A DNA stretch of 64,000 nucleotides from an uncultured Actinomycetes bacterium. Its GTDB lineage: Bacteria; Actinomycetota; Acidimicrobiia; Acidimicrobiales; RAAP-2. Shown piece by piece: positions 22,379 through 30,752 of this stretch (positions are counted from its first letter, which is position 1; the number at the start of each line of letters is the position of its first letter). The DNA lies in NCBI GenBank assembly GCA_903893745.1, contig CAITNF010000011.1:16408-80407 (forward strand). Direction: 5' to 3'. The notes beneath the pieces were generated by a model that did no database searches, had not been told where the DNA came from, and saw only the letters and a program-made list of their open reading frames with translations. The position numbers were made by a program, and so were the translations under genes.

Positions 22379-23836
22379 ATGGCGCGTCGGTCGGTAGTAA
22401 TTATTGGTGGAGGGATTAGTGGTCTTTGTGCGGCCTGGGAGTTAAGTGGCGGCGCCGGTGGTCCGAGCGATGACGCACCACGTATTGAAATTATTGAGGC
22501 GTCACCGCGCTTTGGCGGAGCGATTGCCACGACTGAGTTTGCCGGACACACCATCGACCTCGGCGCAGACGGCTTCTTAGCTCGACGACCCGAAGCGACC
22601 TCATTGGTTAGCGAGTTGGGTTGGGCGTCGCGTCTCGAGGCCATTAGCGCCGCTGGGGCCAGTCTGTGGCTTCGTGGCGCACTGACCTCGCTACCCGCCG
22701 GACTGGCGCTTGGTGTCCCAACATCGGCCTCGTCCCTACGACGGGTGAAGGGTCTGTCGTGGAGCGCTCGTCGCCACGCTCGACGTGACGAACTCTTTGC
22801 GCACCGACTCGACGTTGGCGACGACGCGACGATAGGTGAGATTGTGCGAACCAAACTTGGCGATGAATTGGCGTACCAAGTAGTCGAGCCACTCATTGGT
22901 GGTATTCAAGCCGGACGGATTGACGAACTCTCGGCCAAATCAGTCTTCCCCGCCCTGCTCGATGCCGCTCGCTCCGGTGGCTCCTTGATGAAGGCCTTGC
23001 GCCCCAAGGGCCCCATCAACCCGGGTCCCCAAGCTCAGTCGGTTACCGATGGGCCCGCCTTCTACTCCCTGACCTCGGGGGTAGGTTCACTCGCCGACGA
23101 ACTGGTTACCCAGCTACGAGACCGTGGCGTCGTGCTGCGTCCATCAACCAAGGTGACCGCCGTGCGCGTCGCTCGCGGCGAGTATCGATGGGACGTTGAC
23201 TCCCTCTCCACGACGACGCCGGCCGACTTCGTGATTCTGGCCACCCCCGCGCCCGTCACGAGCACCCTGCTTAGTCAGTACCACCACGCGTTCGCCGCGC
23301 TCGTGGACGTCCCCTACGCGGGTGCCGCCATGGTGACGTTTCACGTCGCCACATCGCACATCACCCTGCCCCCGCACGGAACCGGGGTGCTCGTGCCGCT
23401 AGGGACCGCGTGGACGGGTAGCGACTCGCTGGTCACCACCGCGATTACTTTTCTTGATCGAAAGTGGCCCCATCTAGCGCGCGACGGTGGCGTGGTGCTG
23501 CGCGCCCACGTAGGCCGAAGTGACGACCAGCGGTGGCAGGACATGAGTGACGACGCCCTGCGCGAACGCGTGAGTGCCGAACTCACCTTTTTGTTACCCC
23601 GATTCAGCAAACCGGACGCCTCAATCGTGCAGCGCTGGCCCCACGCACTCCCGCAGTACCTCGTGGGCCACGATCGACTCGTGGAATCGGCCCGACTCGA
23701 GAGTCAGCGCTGTGGTGTCGCCCTCTGTGGCAGCGCCTACGACGGCGTAGGCATTCCGGCGTGCATTGGCTCTGGTCGTCAGGCGGCACGCGAAGCGCTC
23801 GCCAGCATCAAGCTGGCCGGTACCCCACTGTCGTAA
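22379..23836 (+). CDS. Protoporphyrinogen/coproporphyrinogen III oxidase (HemY/HemG type)
   Basis: VVIIGGGISGLCAAWEL, GADGFLARRPEATSLVSELG, VEPLIGGIQAGRIDELSAKSVFP. Confidence 0.92.
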   Translation: MARRSVVIIGGGISGLCAAWELSGGAGGPSDDAPRIEIIEASPRFGGAIATTEFAGHTIDLGADGFLARRPEATSLVSELGWASRLEAISAAGASLWLRGALTSLPAGLALGVPTSASSLRRVKGLSWSARRHARRDELFAHRLDVGDDATIGEIVRTKLGDELAYQVVEPLIGGIQAGRIDELSAKSVFPALLDAARSGGSLMKALRPKGPINPGPQAQSVTDGPAFYSLTSGVGSLADELVTQLRDRGVVLRPSTKVTAVRVARGEYRWDVDSLSTTTPADFVILATPAPVTSTLLSQYHHAFAALVDVPYAGAAMVTFHVATSHITLPPHGTGVLVPLGTAWTGSDSLVTTAITFLDRKWPHLARDGGVVLRAHVGRSDDQRWQDMSDDALRERVSAELTFLLPRFSKPDASIVQRWPHALPQYLVGHDRLVESARLESQRCGVALCGSAYDGVGIPACIGSGRQAAREALASIKLAGTPLS

Positions 23837-25097
23837 CGGCTCGAGGCTTGTGCAGCACGAGCTGCACGTCCGAAACGTGACGCTCCAAAAAGGCCGCCTC
23901 GCAGTAACCAAGGTAGAGATCCCACAGTCGAACGAAGCGGTCATCAAATCCCAGTGCCGCGACGGCGCCGGCTTGATCATGCACGGCGTCACGCCACGCC
24001 GAAAGTGTGCGGACGTAGTGCAGGCCAATATCTTCTAAATCAATTGGCTTGAGGTCAGTGGACCTCGTCACCGAATCGAGCATGGCCGTCACACTCGGCA
24101 GGCAGCCGCCGGGAAAGATCAAATCACGAATGAAGTCCTCTTGCATCTTGGCGCGGTCAAAGCTCTGGTCGGCAATGGTGATGGCCTGAATCACCATACG
24201 GCCGTTATCGTGCAAGAGCCGTGAGCAGGTTGAGAAAAACTCGTCGTAGCGACGCCAGTCCACCGCTTCAATCATTTCAACGGAAACCAAGGCGTCGTAT
24301 GAGCCGGTCAACTCCGCGTAGTGCTCGGTAAGTACCGTGACGCGATCATCTAGTCCCGCCGCACGAATCGCGGCCACGGCACCGTCACGCTGGTTCTCCG
24401 AAATTGTCGTCGTCGTGACGCGCGCACCGTACGTTCGAGCAGCGTGAATGGCAAAGCCGCCCCAACCAGTACCGATCTCGAGGACGTGATCATCGGGTCC
24501 CAGTCGCAACTTTCGACAGAGTCGGTCAAACTTTTCGACTTGCGCGTCGTGTAGTGACGTTGACTCATCAGCGAAGACCGCACACGAGTAAGCCATTGTC
24601 TCGTCGAGCATCAACGAAAAAAATTCGTTCGAGAGATCGTAATGAGCGTGAATATTTTCGCGATCCTGCTTTCGCGACGGACTCGCGCGATGCACCAACG
24701 AGAATAACCAGCCGTAGCGGCGAGCGATACGGTCCCATCGACGGCGATTGCGTTGCGTCGCACGAAATAACAGCCGCACGAGCTGCGTAATATCCGACGT
24801 CGACCATTGACCGTTCACAAAACTTCGACCGAGCCCCTTCGAACCTCCAAAGACCAGTGCCGAGTAGGCGGAACGATCGTGCACCGTCATACCGACGCGC
24901 GGTTCTCCTCGCCCGAGGTTGATTGCACGTGGTGGTTCGACGAACGCTTCGACCACCTGCAACGTGCCGTTGTCACCCAGATGGCGCGCGGCTACGAGTC
25001 GATGAAAGACCCATCGAGCCGCACGCGGAAAACGAACTGCGTGTACGGGCAAGAAACTATCGGGAGCAATGGTGTTGGTTGGCTCAGCGGACAACAT
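23808..25097 (-). CDS. Cyclopropane-fatty-acyl-phospholipid synthase family SAM methyltransferase
   Basis: HYDLSNEFFSLMLDETMAYSCAVF, VLEIGTGWGGFAIHAA. Confidence 0.92.
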   Translation of the reverse strand: MLSAEPTNTIAPDSFLPVHAVRFPRAARWVFHRLVAARHLGDNGTLQVVEAFVEPPRAINLGRGEPRVGMTVHDRSAYSALVFGGSKGLGRSFVNGQWSTSDITQLVRLLFRATQRNRRRWDRIARRYGWLFSLVHRASPSRKQDRENIHAHYDLSNEFFSLMLDETMAYSCAVFADESTSLHDAQVEKFDRLCRKLRLGPDDHVLEIGTGWGGFAIHAARTYGARVTTTTISENQRDGAVAAIRAAGLDDRVTVLTEHYAELTGSYDALVSVEMIEAVDWRRYDEFFSTCSRLLHDNGRMVIQAITIADQSFDRAKMQEDFIRDLIFPGGCLPSVTAMLDSVTRSTDLKPIDLEDIGLHYVRTLSAWRDAVHDQAGAVAALGFDDRFVRLWDLYLGYCEAAFLERHVSDVQLVLHKPRAVTTVGYRPA

Positions 25098-25908
25098 CGT
25101 GCGAGTCCTTCTCGGGTGTAGTGGGGTGGGCTACGTACTTCAGACCCTTAGAAAATAGTGCCCCCGCTTGGAGATAGATGCGTAGCGAGACCCGAAAAGC
25201 CATATCGGGGTAACGCCAGGCCATTGCTCGAAGGGTCGTCCGGCTTAATTCCCGGCGTTCAAGCGCCATGGTGGCGCTAAATCGTCGCGGCCCTTCGCTC
25301 TCGGGGCGCCCCTCGACGAGATCGTGCAGGGTCATTGAGAGGGCGAATCGTTCTCCCGGTTCGCTGTAGTGAAGCCGGTAGGTACCCGCCATTTCGAGAA
25401 AGGGTGAGACGTGATGCGCCTTGGCGAAGGTGCTGAGACCGGCGGGACCGAGTAGGTAGAGGTGTCGATCGCCCCATGGTGTGTTGGTCACTTCAGCGAC
25501 CGCTCGAACTAGTTCGTCACCACTGAAAAAGAAATAGACCGCTATTGGGTTGAAGTTCCATCCCAGCGAACGAAGATTCGCGAGTAGGAGTACCCGGCCC
25601 GGGGCTACTTGCTTCGTCTGATCGAAGTACATCGCACGAGCAGCTTCGTCGAGCGTCCCTCCGTATTGGGGCAAGAAATCGCCACGCCGCACGACGTAAC
25701 GACCGGGAACTAAGTTGCGCCAACGACGCCGAACATCATTATCGGTCACGTGACCCTCGAGTCGCAGGGCGGGAATCGATGTCGTCAACGAGTCGAGTTC
25801 ATCGAGGAAGAGTGCGAACATCATGACTCGATACGTGAACTGGTGTCGCCGAGGGAGGAACCGATGGTGCACAACTCGACCGTGGAAGATTGACGAGCGC
25901 TGGCTCAC
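25084..25908 (-). CDS. DUF1365 family protein
   Basis: SIFHGRVVHHRFLPRRHQFTYRVMMFALFLDELD, NFNPIAVYFFF. GTG start 25908 overlaps the upstream TGA. Confidence 0.88.
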   Translation of the reverse strand: MSQRSSIFHGRVVHHRFLPRRHQFTYRVMMFALFLDELDSLTTSIPALRLEGHVTDNDVRRRWRNLVPGRYVVRRGDFLPQYGGTLDEAARAMYFDQTKQVAPGRVLLLANLRSLGWNFNPIAVYFFFSGDELVRAVAEVTNTPWGDRHLYLLGPAGLSTFAKAHHVSPFLEMAGTYRLHYSEPGERFALSMTLHDLVEGRPESEGPRRFSATMALERRELSRTTLRAMAWRYPDMAFRVSLRIYLQAGALFSKGLKYVAHPTTPEKDSHDVVR

Positions 25909-27149
25909 CACGAAACCCCTAGCGCACCGCAGACCTCCAGGGCACTTCGCACCCCATCTTCGTGAAATCCAAACCCGAAGTACGCACCGCAAAATGACGT
26001 TCGTCCACCGTGCAACGTATGACGCAGCTGCTGCGCCGCGACGGTGACCTGATCGAGAACCGGATGGGCGTACTGAAGTTTCATGATGACGCGATTGGGA
26101 TCAATTAGCTCATTGGAGTTCAGTGAAACAAGATACTCGTGAGGTCCCTCAATCGATTGCAACGTGCTGATGTTGTAGGTCAACGTGGCGAGCGAACCAT
26201 CATCCACCCGCCGGTAGTTCCACGCCGCCCACGCACGACGCGACGCCGGCAGAATTGAAGTATCAGTGTGCAGCGTTACTTCGTTCTCCTGGTAGCGAAT
26301 TGCCCCCAAAACTTGCACTTCAGCGTCGGAGGGATCGATCAAGAGGGCCAGTGCTTGGTCACTATGGCAGGCCAAAATCACGTGATCGAAGGTGTCGACA
26401 CCACCGTCAACGGTGACGTCGACGTGGTCAGCAAAACGGCGCACCGATCGTACTGGTGTAGCAACGTGCACGACACCCCGGGCCCGGACGTGATCGGCAA
26501 TTCGTTGCACGTACTCACGTGACCCGCCCGTGATAGTGCGCCAGGTTGGCATGCCGCGAACCCGCAAGAGTCCGTGACGAGAGAAAAACTCCGCAAAGGT
26601 GCGTGCGGGAATATCCGTGAAGGTCTGCGGGTTGGCCGACCAAATAGCGGCCCCCATTGGCACCAAGTACCACTCCTGGAATCCTCGTCCCCATCGATTA
26701 GTCGCCAGAAGATCGCCCAGGGTCATGTGGGGATCGAGTTCACCTCGTAGTGCGCGACGCAGGGTTCGATTGAACGACACAATATCGAGCACCATCCGCA
26801 AGAAACGTGGTCGAAGGAGGTTGCGTCGCTGAGCGAACACCGAGTTCAGACTGCTGCCCTTCCATTCGAGTTTCGCCGCCTCGTCGGCGTAACTGAAACT
26901 CATCACACTCTCTTTTGTCGTCACTTCGAGACGTTCGAGCAGCTTGATGAAGTTCGGATAGGTTTCGTCGTTGTACACAAGAAAACCAGTGTCAACTGGA
27001 ATTGTCTGCGAACCTTCGCATACCTCAACCGTGTGCGCGTGACCGCCCAGACGATCGTCCGCTTCGAACAACGTGACCTCGTGCACGTCACTTAACAAGA
27101 ACGCGCACGTCAAACCACTCACTCCGGCACCCACGATGGCGATTCTCAC
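25905..27149 (-). CDS. FAD-dependent oxidoreductase of the cfa/DUF1365 cluster
   Basis: MRIAIVGAGVSGLTCAFLLSDVHEVTLFEADDRLGGHAHTVEV, GFLVYNDETYPNFIKL. Confidence 0.9.
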   Translation of the reverse strand: MRIAIVGAGVSGLTCAFLLSDVHEVTLFEADDRLGGHAHTVEVCEGSQTIPVDTGFLVYNDETYPNFIKLLERLEVTTKESVMSFSYADEAAKLEWKGSSLNSVFAQRRNLLRPRFLRMVLDIVSFNRTLRRALRGELDPHMTLGDLLATNRWGRGFQEWYLVPMGAAIWSANPQTFTDIPARTFAEFFSRHGLLRVRGMPTWRTITGGSREYVQRIADHVRARGVVHVATPVRSVRRFADHVDVTVDGGVDTFDHVILACHSDQALALLIDPSDAEVQVLGAIRYQENEVTLHTDTSILPASRRAWAAWNYRRVDDGSLATLTYNISTLQSIEGPHEYLVSLNSNELIDPNRVIMKLQYAHPVLDQVTVAAQQLRHTLHGGRTSFCGAYFGFGFHEDGVRSALEVCGALGVSW

Positions 27150-27220: not shown

Positions 27221-27721
27221 TTAGAGGTAGTAGCCCGAATGTATGTAGATACACGGTACGCCTTCACTGATGTACATTGCGTGGTTTTTTGGATCATCGT
27301 CAAGTGCCAAACGCAGATCGAAGCCGTGAGCGACGAGGTCGCGTACTGCACCACGCTTGAACTCATCGACACCGGAGTAGTCCCCGTACTCGCGCATAAT
27401 CAAAAGGTCCCAGCGCAATCCGTATCGACTTAGCCAAGCCAGTGTGTGGGGCTGCACCCGTCGAGGCCGACCGGTCAACAAAATAATTGTGAGGTCACTG
27501 TCTAAGAGTTCGAGGAGTCGCTCAATCTCCTCAATAACCGGATCGTCACCGCAGGCCTCAAAGAAACTCTTCCAGTCACCCCAATCGAGGTAGTGCTGAC
27601 GCCCGGCGGCGTCGGCCAGTACGCCGTCAATGTCAAAGATGACGGCTGAACCGCCCTCACCTGGAGCGTCGCGCCAGTGCCAGTTTTCTTGTCGATAGTC
27701 CGAAGTCATTAGCAGTTTCAT
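27221..27721 (-). CDS. HAD-superfamily phosphatase (polynucleotide kinase-phosphatase-like)
   Basis: AVIFDIDGVLADAAGRQ, IILLTGRPRR, LALDDDPKN. Confidence 0.78.
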   Translation of the reverse strand: MKLLMTSDYRQENWHWRDAPGEGGSAVIFDIDGVLADAAGRQHYLDWGDWKSFFEACGDDPVIEEIERLLELLDSDLTIILLTGRPRRVQPHTLAWLSRYGLRWDLLIMREYGDYSGVDEFKRGAVRDLVAHGFDLRLALDDDPKNHAMYISEGVPCIYIHSGYYL

Positions 27722-27737
27722 CCTCGCACACTCGTGG

Positions 27738-30700
27738 ATGATGTCTGCGAGACTAGACGCTGTGAATACTCAAGAACGTCTGACGTTGCCTATTCCCTAC
27801 GGTCAGCACGTCTACGTGGTCAGCGACCTGTCGCTCTCGCCCACCTCCGACCCCCGCAGTCGACCAATTCAAGAATTTGTGGCGCTCCTGAACGAAATCG
27901 ATGATGTGGCGACCGTGGTGGTCGCGGGCAACTTCTTTCGTCCTGATCCCACGTCGGACTTGACTCGGTTTCTCGAGGCAACGTTGCGAGTCCTGCCCGA
28001 ACTAAGAAGTGCAATCGAGCACTTCACCATGAAGGAAGGTCGTCGCTTCCTGGTGCTGCCCGGCACCGACGACGCGGAGCTCGCTGAACACGCCGTCAGT
28101 CAACTTGCGCTCGGCGCGCTCGGCATCACCGTCGCCAGTAGCCTCATCTTGCAATTGGCGACCGCGAGCGGTGTGCGCGAACTCGCCGTTGCAGCGGGAA
28201 CTTGCTCCATTGACGTGTCGCGGGCCGACCCCGCCGATCGTAGCGACGCCGACCGACTCGAGGACCCCCAGGCACTGCATCGCTTCGTGGCGTCTCGCGT
28301 GCTCTACCGGCGACTCGCCGGTTGGGTCTGGTTTCCCCTCGTCGCCATGGTCTGTTTTGATCTCTTTAACGTCGCCGCCTCGGTGCTCAACCACTTCACG
28401 CACAAACAACTGCGACTGCACACCCCCCACACTCAGAGTTTCTGGATCAACCTGGTCGTTAATCTGCTCGTCGTGGCTGGGCTCGAAGCCCTGGTGGCCG
28501 GTGTGGCCGGACTCTTAGTAAGGCGACGGTTTGCTCGCCAGGCGCGTGAAAGCTCGGCCTTTGCACACCGTGAACCACTCGTCTTGACCATGGTTGACGG
28601 TGTCGATGCGCTCGAGTTCGCTCGCCGTAATGCCGAGTTGGGTGGGGCGGGTGCGGTTGTCGGTGGTTCACCGCGACCGGCGCTGGCATTTCTCGACCGC
28701 GGCGTCTGTGCCGCACCGGGCCCCTCACGAACGGTCGTGGTTGAACGGCGAGGCCGACTCGGACTACCTCCGGTCTTTACGACCGTGGACCGCTTAGGGG
28801 TGATTGAGATTGAAGCTGCCGGCTCGGTGCAGGTTCGTCTCACGGCCGGTGAATCACCTGGTCAACGCGCCACTCTGCTCGAACGACTCGTTCGCGGAGC
28901 CCCACTCCAACTAGCCCCCGCACTCGCCACTTCCACCATTGGCTCGTGGCCGACTGGTGACCCCTTTCCACTCGCGCTCGACCGACTCGCCACACAGCGC
29001 GCGCAACGCTTCGTGCGCCGCCTCGCCAGCGGGCTGCTCTTTATTGATGGGGTAGTCAATATCGCCGTGACCGCGTCACCACCCCTGCGCAACCGTCTGC
29101 ACACCGTGCTGTCAATCTTGCCCCTCGGCGTGGCCCAAACGGCCGCGGCCGTCACGGCGCTCGCGGGGATTGGCCTCGTCATGATGGCTCGTGGCGTCCG
29201 ACGAGGTCAGCGCCGTGCTTGGTTCGTGGCCGTAACGGCGCTCGCGGTCACCATCGTGGCCCACCTGGCCCGAGGTGGTGGCGTGCGTCAGTCGCTACTC
29301 GCCATCGTCATTCTCGCCTTCCTCGTGGTACAACGAGCTAACTTCTCTGGCTCGACTGATCGCACCAGCGTGCGAGTGGCGCTGCCACGACTGGCCCTGG
29401 TGGCCCTCGTGGCGGTCGTGGCCGCGACCGTTGGTATTGAGGCGGCCAACGTGCACGGCCACCTACCCAACGTCGGCGTTGTCATCGTTGCGTGCGCTGA
29501 ACGATTGGTCGGCTTGGGACTAATTACGTTGCCGGACCGAGTCGGAGATTTTGCCAATCCGACGCTACTCAGCATTGGCCTCGCCCTCATTATTGTGACG
29601 CTCTATTTATTGACCCGCCCCGTGGTCGATCGTCGTCTCTCCCAGACGGGGTCCAGCGCCGAGCGACGCGTGGCGGAATTTCGCGCTCGTGAAATTGTGC
29701 GACGACACGGCCGCGGCACGCTTGACTACTTCGCACTTCGCGATGACAAGCAGTTCTTCTTCTACCGTGATTCGCTCGTGGCCTACGCAGTATTCGGAGG
29801 CGTAGCGCTGGTATCGCCTGACCCCATTGGACCGACGGCCGAGCGAGCCGAAGTATTCAGTACCTTTCGCGCCTACGTCGAGTCACGAGGTTGGACGCTT
29901 GGCATCATGGCGGCGGGCGAGGAGTGGATCGCGACGTACCACGCCGCCGGACTGCACGCGCTCTACGTGGGCGATGAAGCACTCATTAACTGTCAGACAT
30001 TTTCACTCGAGGGTGGCAAGATGAAGGGTCTACGTCAAGCGCAAACGCGTCTCGCGCGTTACGGCTACACCGTGGAGTTTCTCGATCCGGCCACCATCGA
30101 ACCCCGTCGCGTCGCTGACCTCGTGGCCCTGACCTCGATGTTGCGTCGAGGTGACGGTGAGCGGGGCTTTTCGATGGTGCTGGGGCGGCTCTTCAATCCC
30201 AAGGACAAGGGCCTACTCTTGACGATTGTGCACGGCCCCGATGGCTTGCCCGCGGCGATCTGCCAGTTCGTTCCGTCGCCGGCCATCAACGCCTACTCAC
30301 TCGACCTCATGCGTCGTGACCCGGGCGAGCACCCCAATGGGCTGATCGACTTTGCGCTGTGCTCAACCATTGACTACCTACGCACTCAGCACGTTCGAGA
30401 GCTCAGTCTCAACTTTGCGGCTTTTCGTTCGGTCCTCGAGAGCGACGAGGACGACAGCACGCTGACACGGGTGGAGCGCTGGGCGCTCAAGCGACTTTCG
30501 GGCGTGTTGCCCATTGAGTCGTTGTGGACCTTCAACGCGAAGTATCACCCGACTTGGCTTCCGCGTTACCTGGTCTATCCCGCCGTCGAAAGTTTCGTCC
30601 CGGTTGTCGCGGCCATCTTGCGCGCGGAGTCCTTCACGGAGATTCCGGTACTCGGACGATTTCTTACCAACGATCCAGCCAATCGGCCGGGTACGGTCGT

Positions 30701-30752
30701 GCCCGAAGACCTGCTCACCGTGGCACCTCAATCGAACGAGACCACGATTTAG
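27738..30752 (+). CDS. Fusion: degenerate metallophosphoesterase-like domain, TM region, MprF/DUF2156-like C-terminal domain
   Basis: N-term YVVSDLSLSPTSD...VVVAGNFFRPD...FLVLPGTDDAEL; several TM stretches; C-term DDKQFFFYRDSLVAYAVFGGVALVSPDPIGP...GRLFNPKDKGLL...LIDFALCSTIDYLR...LSLNFAAFRSVLES typical of phosphatidylglycerol lysyltransferase catalytic domains. Start may be GTG 27762. Confidence 0.75.
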   Translation: MMSARLDAVNTQERLTLPIPYGQHVYVVSDLSLSPTSDPRSRPIQEFVALLNEIDDVATVVVAGNFFRPDPTSDLTRFLEATLRVLPELRSAIEHFTMKEGRRFLVLPGTDDAELAEHAVSQLALGALGITVASSLILQLATASGVRELAVAAGTCSIDVSRADPADRSDADRLEDPQALHRFVASRVLYRRLAGWVWFPLVAMVCFDLFNVAASVLNHFTHKQLRLHTPHTQSFWINLVVNLLVVAGLEALVAGVAGLLVRRRFARQARESSAFAHREPLVLTMVDGVDALEFARRNAELGGAGAVVGGSPRPALAFLDRGVCAAPGPSRTVVVERRGRLGLPPVFTTVDRLGVIEIEAAGSVQVRLTAGESPGQRATLLERLVRGAPLQLAPALATSTIGSWPTGDPFPLALDRLATQRAQRFVRRLASGLLFIDGVVNIAVTASPPLRNRLHTVLSILPLGVAQTAAAVTALAGIGLVMMARGVRRGQRRAWFVAVTALAVTIVAHLARGGGVRQSLLAIVILAFLVVQRANFSGSTDRTSVRVALPRLALVALVAVVAATVGIEAANVHGHLPNVGVVIVACAERLVGLGLITLPDRVGDFANPTLLSIGLALIIVTLYLLTRPVVDRRLSQTGSSAERRVAEFRAREIVRRHGRGTLDYFALRDDKQFFFYRDSLVAYAVFGGVALVSPDPIGPTAERAEVFSTFRAYVESRGWTLGIMAAGEEWIATYHAAGLHALYVGDEALINCQTFSLEGGKMKGLRQAQTRLARYGYTVEFLDPATIEPRRVADLVALTSMLRRGDGERGFSMVLGRLFNPKDKGLLLTIVHGPDGLPAAICQFVPSPAINAYSLDLMRRDPGEHPNGLIDFALCSTIDYLRTQHVRELSLNFAAFRSVLESDEDDSTLTRVERWALKRLSGVLPIESLWTFNAKYHPTWLPRYLVYPAVESFVPVVAAILRAESFTEIPVLGRFLTNDPANRPGTVVPEDLLTVAPQSNETTI

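Follow-up and report, generated by a model that had tools for sequence, protein, structure and literature searches.

A degenerate metallophosphoesterase-like domain fused to a LysX-type aminoacyl-lipid synthase domain in Acidimicrobiia

We analysed a stretch of 64,000 nucleotides, referred to here as the window, from an uncultured member of the Acidimicrobiia whose genome assembly measures 1.66 Mb and is 96% complete. The gene under study is a single uninterrupted open reading frame of 1004 codons with an ATG start (Table 1). The preliminary description of this DNA had proposed a fusion of a degenerate metallophosphoesterase (MPE) with an MprF-like synthase. It is clear that one frame occupies exactly the 1004-residue span that had been given and that both domains are supported. 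At each of the 18 homologous loci that extend far enough upstream, the same HAD_PNKP-type gene divergently adjoins the fusion gene; downstream, most loci have nuo genes and a conserved gene for a 298-aa protein, which resembles ATP-grasp by eye and has no Pfam match. This synteny suggests vertical inheritance and is no proof of a function shared with the HAD_PNKP-type neighbour. The three lipid-related genes on the other side of it were found together at some related loci (L005, L006 and L010) and were absent at others, as would be expected of an optional cassette for lipid modification. Elsewhere in the genome there are a second, shorter LPG_synthase_C/DUF2156 gene (358-codon frame, G000:C9:3809-4624), a separate LPG_synthase_TM frame of 356 codons and two frames with tRNA-synt_2, 592 and 475 codons long, tentatively taken by their size as AspRS and LysRS.

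Table 1. Features of the fusion gene and its neighbours, in window coordinates
Feature	Position	Strand	Remarks
Cyclopropane-fatty-acid synthase-like, DUF1365 and FAD amine-oxidase-like genes	23808-27149	-	in a row, beside the fusion gene
HAD_PNKP-type phosphatase-like protein	27221..27721	-	166 aa; divergent from the fusion gene, 16-bp gap
Whole fusion gene	27738..30752	+	1004 aa; pseudo-metallophosphoesterase / LysX-type aminoacyl-lipid synthase fusion; full-length homologues
First half of degenerate MPE fold	27777..28298	+	residues ~14-187; motif I SDLSL (D30, S32), II AGN (N65), III PGTDD (T110, D111), motif IV position A153
Membrane-helix pair within MPE fold	28323..28523	+	residues ~196-262; hydropathy, AF2 helices, LpxH insertion slot
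Second half of MPE fold	28590..28952	+	residues ~285-405; GHTH replaced by GGSPRP (G310, P312); the CAAPGPSR and LPPVF blocks that follow are highly conserved
LysX-type membrane domain, six predicted helices	28989..29612	+	residues ~418-625; NCBIfam LysX/MprF alignment starts at 413-419, AF2 helices, hydropathy
LPG_synthase_C (PF09924)	29691..30578	+	residues 652-947; aminoacyl-tRNA-dependent lipid aminoacyltransferase domain; Pfam

The DUF2156/MprF-type domain announced for the C-terminus was recovered by Pfam as LPG_synthase_C, scoring 209 bits where the cut-off is 27.5 (E 8e-62). NCBIfam alignments with LysX and MprF together cover residues 413-974, and the hydrophobic helices immediately N-terminal of the synthase domain were seen in the NCBIfam alignment, in the hydropathy profile and in the AF2 model. 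The LysX equivalog NF002821 aligned with residues 419-974 (E 3e-78) and scored 264 bits, far below its cut-off of 742 bits; the bifunctional MprF equivalog NF033480 scored 225 bits against 600, its alignment starting at profile position 309. The N-terminal flippase half of MprF was absent in the NCBIfam comparison, and there is no C-terminal LysRS domain, the polypeptide ending past the synthase domain. The PDB matches of this half were A-PGS, L-PGS and MprF structures, including 7f47, 9j8q and 7duw, and in a fold search of the PDB with the full-length model the first 50 matches were synthase-type and other GNAT-type structures only, for which reason the N-domain was also modelled by itself. 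The SLDLMR and FNAKYHPTWLPRYL blocks are common to the window protein and the solved A-PGS and L-PGS structures, and the SLDLMR and K.P.W.PRYL blocks are consistent with tRNA-dependent lipid aminoacylation.

Among known proteins, the bifunctional LysX of mycobacteria and corynebacteria, a lysyl-diacylglycerol synthase (PMC10580965), has the same membrane domain and LPG_synthase_C, but it carries a C-terminal LysRS domain and no MPE domain, whereas the window protein is the reverse on both counts. MprF, the lysyl- and alanyl-PG synthase-flippase, also combines the synthase domain with membrane helices, although it possesses N-terminal flippase helices that the window protein lacks. LysX2 (Rv1619) is likewise an actinobacterial MprF-domain protein without the classical layout; its membrane helices number four, its synthase domain is extracytoplasmic, and an MPE domain is not mentioned in its description (PMC8974105). 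Since LysX puts lysine onto diacylglycerol (PMC10580965) and the second half of the window protein is of that type, its acceptor is likely to be a glycerolipid. Both halves are known separately, and in the open-licence literature searched for the fusion or the pseudo-MPE no relevant description was found.

The nature of the N-terminal half is less apparent. Neither Pfam nor NCBIfam recognises Metallophos when given the window protein alone, so that a reading based on domain names would have missed the MPE domain; Pfam gives a sub-threshold match to DNA_pol_E_B at residues 25-113 (E 0.006-0.02). DNA_pol_E_B is itself a family of the MPE fold. The relationship is barely visible from the sequence of this protein alone, and as a phmmer search of PDB sequences with an intact N-domain returned chance matches only, a comparison of folds was needed. 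An AF2 model of residues 1-416, built from an alignment of 20 degenerate proteins with no intact members, had a pLDDT of 84 and a pTM of 0.81. Foldseek against the PDB placed first the LpxH-lipid X complex 5k8k (E 2e-5, probability 1.00); the next matches included the B subunits of DNA polymerases delta, zeta, alpha and epsilon, Mre11, GpdQ, Vps29, Rv0805 and the lasso-peptide epimerase MslH. In a profile comparison, the degenerate clade matched an intact fused relative at 99.9% (E 1e-31, 351 columns). Domain-wise structure prediction, with LpxH as the top match and with homologues of the same architecture whose intact MPE domains pass the Metallophos cut-off, thus bore out the MPE fold proposed for the N-terminus, and residues ~14-405 are predicted to form a calcineurin-like double-beta-sandwich. 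The full-length model was weak (pTM 0.44; pLDDT 69 overall and 80-91 in most of the N-domain core), and domain-domain contacts cannot be read from it.

In the N-domain model the fold is split: strands up to ~153 and helices 165-197 are followed by the membrane pair and then by strands 305-404. The pair consists of AF2 helices 199-225 and 235-272, with hydropathy peaks at 199-217 and 243-261. The preliminary description had placed the membrane segments after the N-domain; the first pair, however, lies inside the MPE domain, and the second MPE half beyond it had been overlooked. LpxH holds the acyl chains of its lipid with a helical insertion between His114 and His195 (PMC5016852), and in the model the membrane pair occupies the slot of this insertion. 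The pair carries basic residues at its inner ends (RVLYRRL... and VRRRFARQ) and the number of helices before the synthase domain (six) is even, so we infer that the two halves of the MPE fold share one side of the membrane with the synthase domain. By analogy with LysX and MprF, whose synthase domains were found to be cytoplasmic by PhoA and LacZ fusions (PMC8974105), this would be the cytoplasmic side.

The motifs SDLSLS (S29-S34), AGNFF (63-67) and PGTDD (108-112), from which a loss of most metal ligands had been proposed, are all present as quoted. When the ligand positions were assigned by alignment to intact relatives, seven of the eight active-site residues proved to be replaced: D30 is kept, whereas H became S32, D became N65, N became T110, and the four remaining histidines became D111, A153, G310 and P312. 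Of the seven-ligand set D, H, D, N, H, H, H of MPE enzymes only D30 is left, and of the seven metal ligands given for LpxH (PMC5016852) the window protein likewise keeps one. In the clade of the window protein D30 and D112 are nearly invariant and C324 is invariant; the replaced ligand positions are only moderately conserved, which does not support a specific new binding site at the former metal centre.

The same architecture, which had been suggested as a search target, was found in other genomes. Relatives of the window protein occur at 21 other loci in public genomes with 46-75% identity, most of them full length and nearly all in metagenome-assembled genomes (MAGs) of Acidimicrobiia. A profile of the N-domain matched 93 of 120 sampled genomes of the family, nearly always in frames of ~1000 codons, and 45 of the 47 genomes listed for the genus. 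The number of full-length relatives and the length of these frames argue that the fusion is not a chance product. Fusions with the N-domain extend to further Acidimicrobiia and to other families of the phylum; stand-alone N-domain proteins of ~450-490 aa exist in several families. Two loci from records titled Acidobacteria bacterium (L001 and L015) have the fusion gene and the synteny of the Acidimicrobiia family, and their labels look like misnaming of MAGs.

An alignment of 79 proteins revealed a graded series of active sites. In the stand-alone relatives the site is complete, with its eight residues D, H, D, N, H, H, H, H (DxH, GD, GNHD, H, GHTH), except that in L099 the alignment stops short of the last motifs. 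All eight are also kept in five fused proteins (L095, L096, L047, L083 and L084), five in L085, four in L088 and three in L045, whereas the window protein and its relatives retain none to two. Metallophos exceeded the Pfam cut-off in those intact members that were run against Pfam; in L083 LPG_synthase_C did so as well, in the same frame. Most fused members without ligands have also lost ~25-30 residues after motif IV. Intact relatives of both kinds, together with this series, indicate that the degenerate phosphoesterase is real and that its degenerate state is derived. Four of the intact fusions, L083 (G381), L084 (G469), L095 (G223) and L096 (G212), unite a LysX-type synthase with an MPE that seems to be active and are candidate bifunctional lipid phosphoesterase/aminoacyltransferases. 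We also looked for separate neighbouring MPE and synthase genes around the stand-alone relatives, and no synthase was seen within ~9 kb, as far as the contigs reached.

In a tree of the synthase half, the fused proteins formed one branch with a support of 100 against 20 unfused synthases, with L113 counted as fused because it carries the same fully degenerate N-domain; when L113 was labelled unfused, the fused group did not survive the AU test (p 0.03). The intact members lie near the base of the fused branch, outside a clade with a support of 97. The tree of the MPE domain was less clear in this respect, as a single clade of fused domains was neither shown nor rejected (AU p 0.59). As the fused forms are one clade in the synthase-half tree, a single fusion followed by erosion would be the simplest reading, and erosion probably occurred more than once, L085, L088 and L052 lying apart.

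The degenerate domain is under purifying selection: between close pairs dN/dS was 0.09-0.27 in the MPE part and 0.05-0.14 in the rest, rough values because several synonymous distances are high. The blocks conserved in the degenerate clade are DPxxxxRFxxSRxLYRRL ahead of the membrane pair and GGxPRPAL, CAxPGPSR and LPPVF past it.

LpxH, the UDP-2,3-diacylglucosamine pyrophosphohydrolase, is the best fold match and, like the window N-domain, has a lipid-facing insertion between motif IV and GHTH. In LpxH, however, the insertion is a four-helix lipid lid, while the window protein has a membrane-helix pair there. The LpxH equivalog PRK05340 had no match in the window protein, and the intact relatives scored 14 of 134 bits or nothing. 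They also read GNHD, where true LpxH has an Arg in place of the His that follows the motif III Asn, and therefore are not LpxH. On the score, the GNHD motif and the missing helical lid, we rejected membership of the LpxH family. The other close fold matches include the B subunits of DNA polymerases and Vps29, which are inactive scaffolds of the MPE fold. These, too, keep a calcineurin-like fold without the full metal centre in a larger machine, but they are soluble subunits, whereas the predicted fold in the window protein is inserted in the membrane and covalently fused to a lipid-modifying enzyme.

Taking all this together, we infer for the N-domain a function as a membrane-embedded pseudophosphoesterase at the cytoplasmic face that would bind lipid, regulate the aminoacyl-lipid synthase to which it is fused, or do both, a reading to which we assign a probability of roughly 0.6. 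The GNAT-like cytoplasmic domain of the synthase half would move an amino acid from aminoacyl-tRNA to a glycerolipid, for instance DAG or PG. A membrane-anchored phosphoesterase of the calcineurin type, similar to LpxH, would have become joined to the synthase N-terminus, and in the window lineage it would no longer hydrolyse phosphoesters and would be kept as a pseudoenzyme. Its former lipid crevice and the rewritten GHTH loop (GGxPRPALAFLD..CAAPGPSR) may bind lipid or the adjoining synthase domain, so that the pseudo-domain would present, sense or gate the acceptor lipid.

The main rival is that the domain is a structural remnant, a membrane anchor and a scaffold for folding or dimerisation with no ligand and no regulatory role, as in the polymerase B subunits. 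The loss of seven of the eight active-site residues, the deletion after motif IV, a dN/dS of the MPE part ~1.1-2.4 times that of the synthase half, and the inactive scaffolds of polymerases alpha, delta, epsilon and zeta and Vps29 among the structural neighbours all fit it. The near-invariant C324-A-x-P-G-P, LPPVF and DP..RF.xSR.LYRRL, however, exceed the conservation that a passive anchor needs, and we consider a remnant rather unlikely. It is much less probable still that the domain is a catalyst with a rewired site, acting on a lipid phosphate independently of metal or with one metal held by D30, D111, D112 and other residues. The invariance of C324, the near invariance of D30 and D112 and the strong purifying selection would agree with this, but no conserved set of residues at the ligand positions could replace the dinuclear centre, and in LpxH the single ligand change H10N already costs one metal, with no activity expected (PMC5016852). 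That an ordinary LysX/MprF protein has acquired an unrelated extension which resembles an MPE by chance, as the missing Metallophos call and the sub-threshold DNA_pol_E_B match would allow, is hardly credible: that family is itself of the MPE fold, the fold search and the profile comparison agree, and intact full-length homologues refute it unless the alignment is wrong.

Returning to the lipid-binding or regulatory pseudophosphoesterase, its intact fused relatives probably acted on a lipid phosphate of the same pathway, for example by making the acceptor. A lipid phosphate is a plausible substrate of the intact relatives from their LpxH-like layout, the membrane insertion, the fusion and, weakly, a glycosyltransferase neighbour. 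A gene resembling MGDG synthase (a DAG glycosyltransferase) was found near stand-alone intact relatives in 5 of 27 neighbourhoods, a minority pattern. At these loci (L097, L143, L146, L148 and L149) it lies near a stand-alone membrane-inserted MPE in varying orientation, which suggests a glycerolipid-related substrate. More tentatively, and with the odds somewhat against it, the family may have begun as a bifunctional protein in which an embedded phosphoesterase made or trimmed the acceptor for the tRNA-dependent transferase; in some lineages, including most of the Acidimicrobiia sampled, it would then have become a lipid-sensing pseudoenzyme that controls synthesis. If true, this would be a naturally occurring series within a single polypeptide, with an active enzyme at one end and a regulator at the other.

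MprF and LysX proteins set the surface charge of bacteria and their tolerance of antimicrobial peptides. How the supply of acceptor lipid is coupled to the activity of the synthase is poorly known, and in the present fusion the synthase and a phosphoesterase-like domain are parts of one molecule. With related species carrying this domain whole, partly eroded or dead, it becomes possible to ask which lipid phosphate the intact form cuts and what role the dead MPE has taken on.
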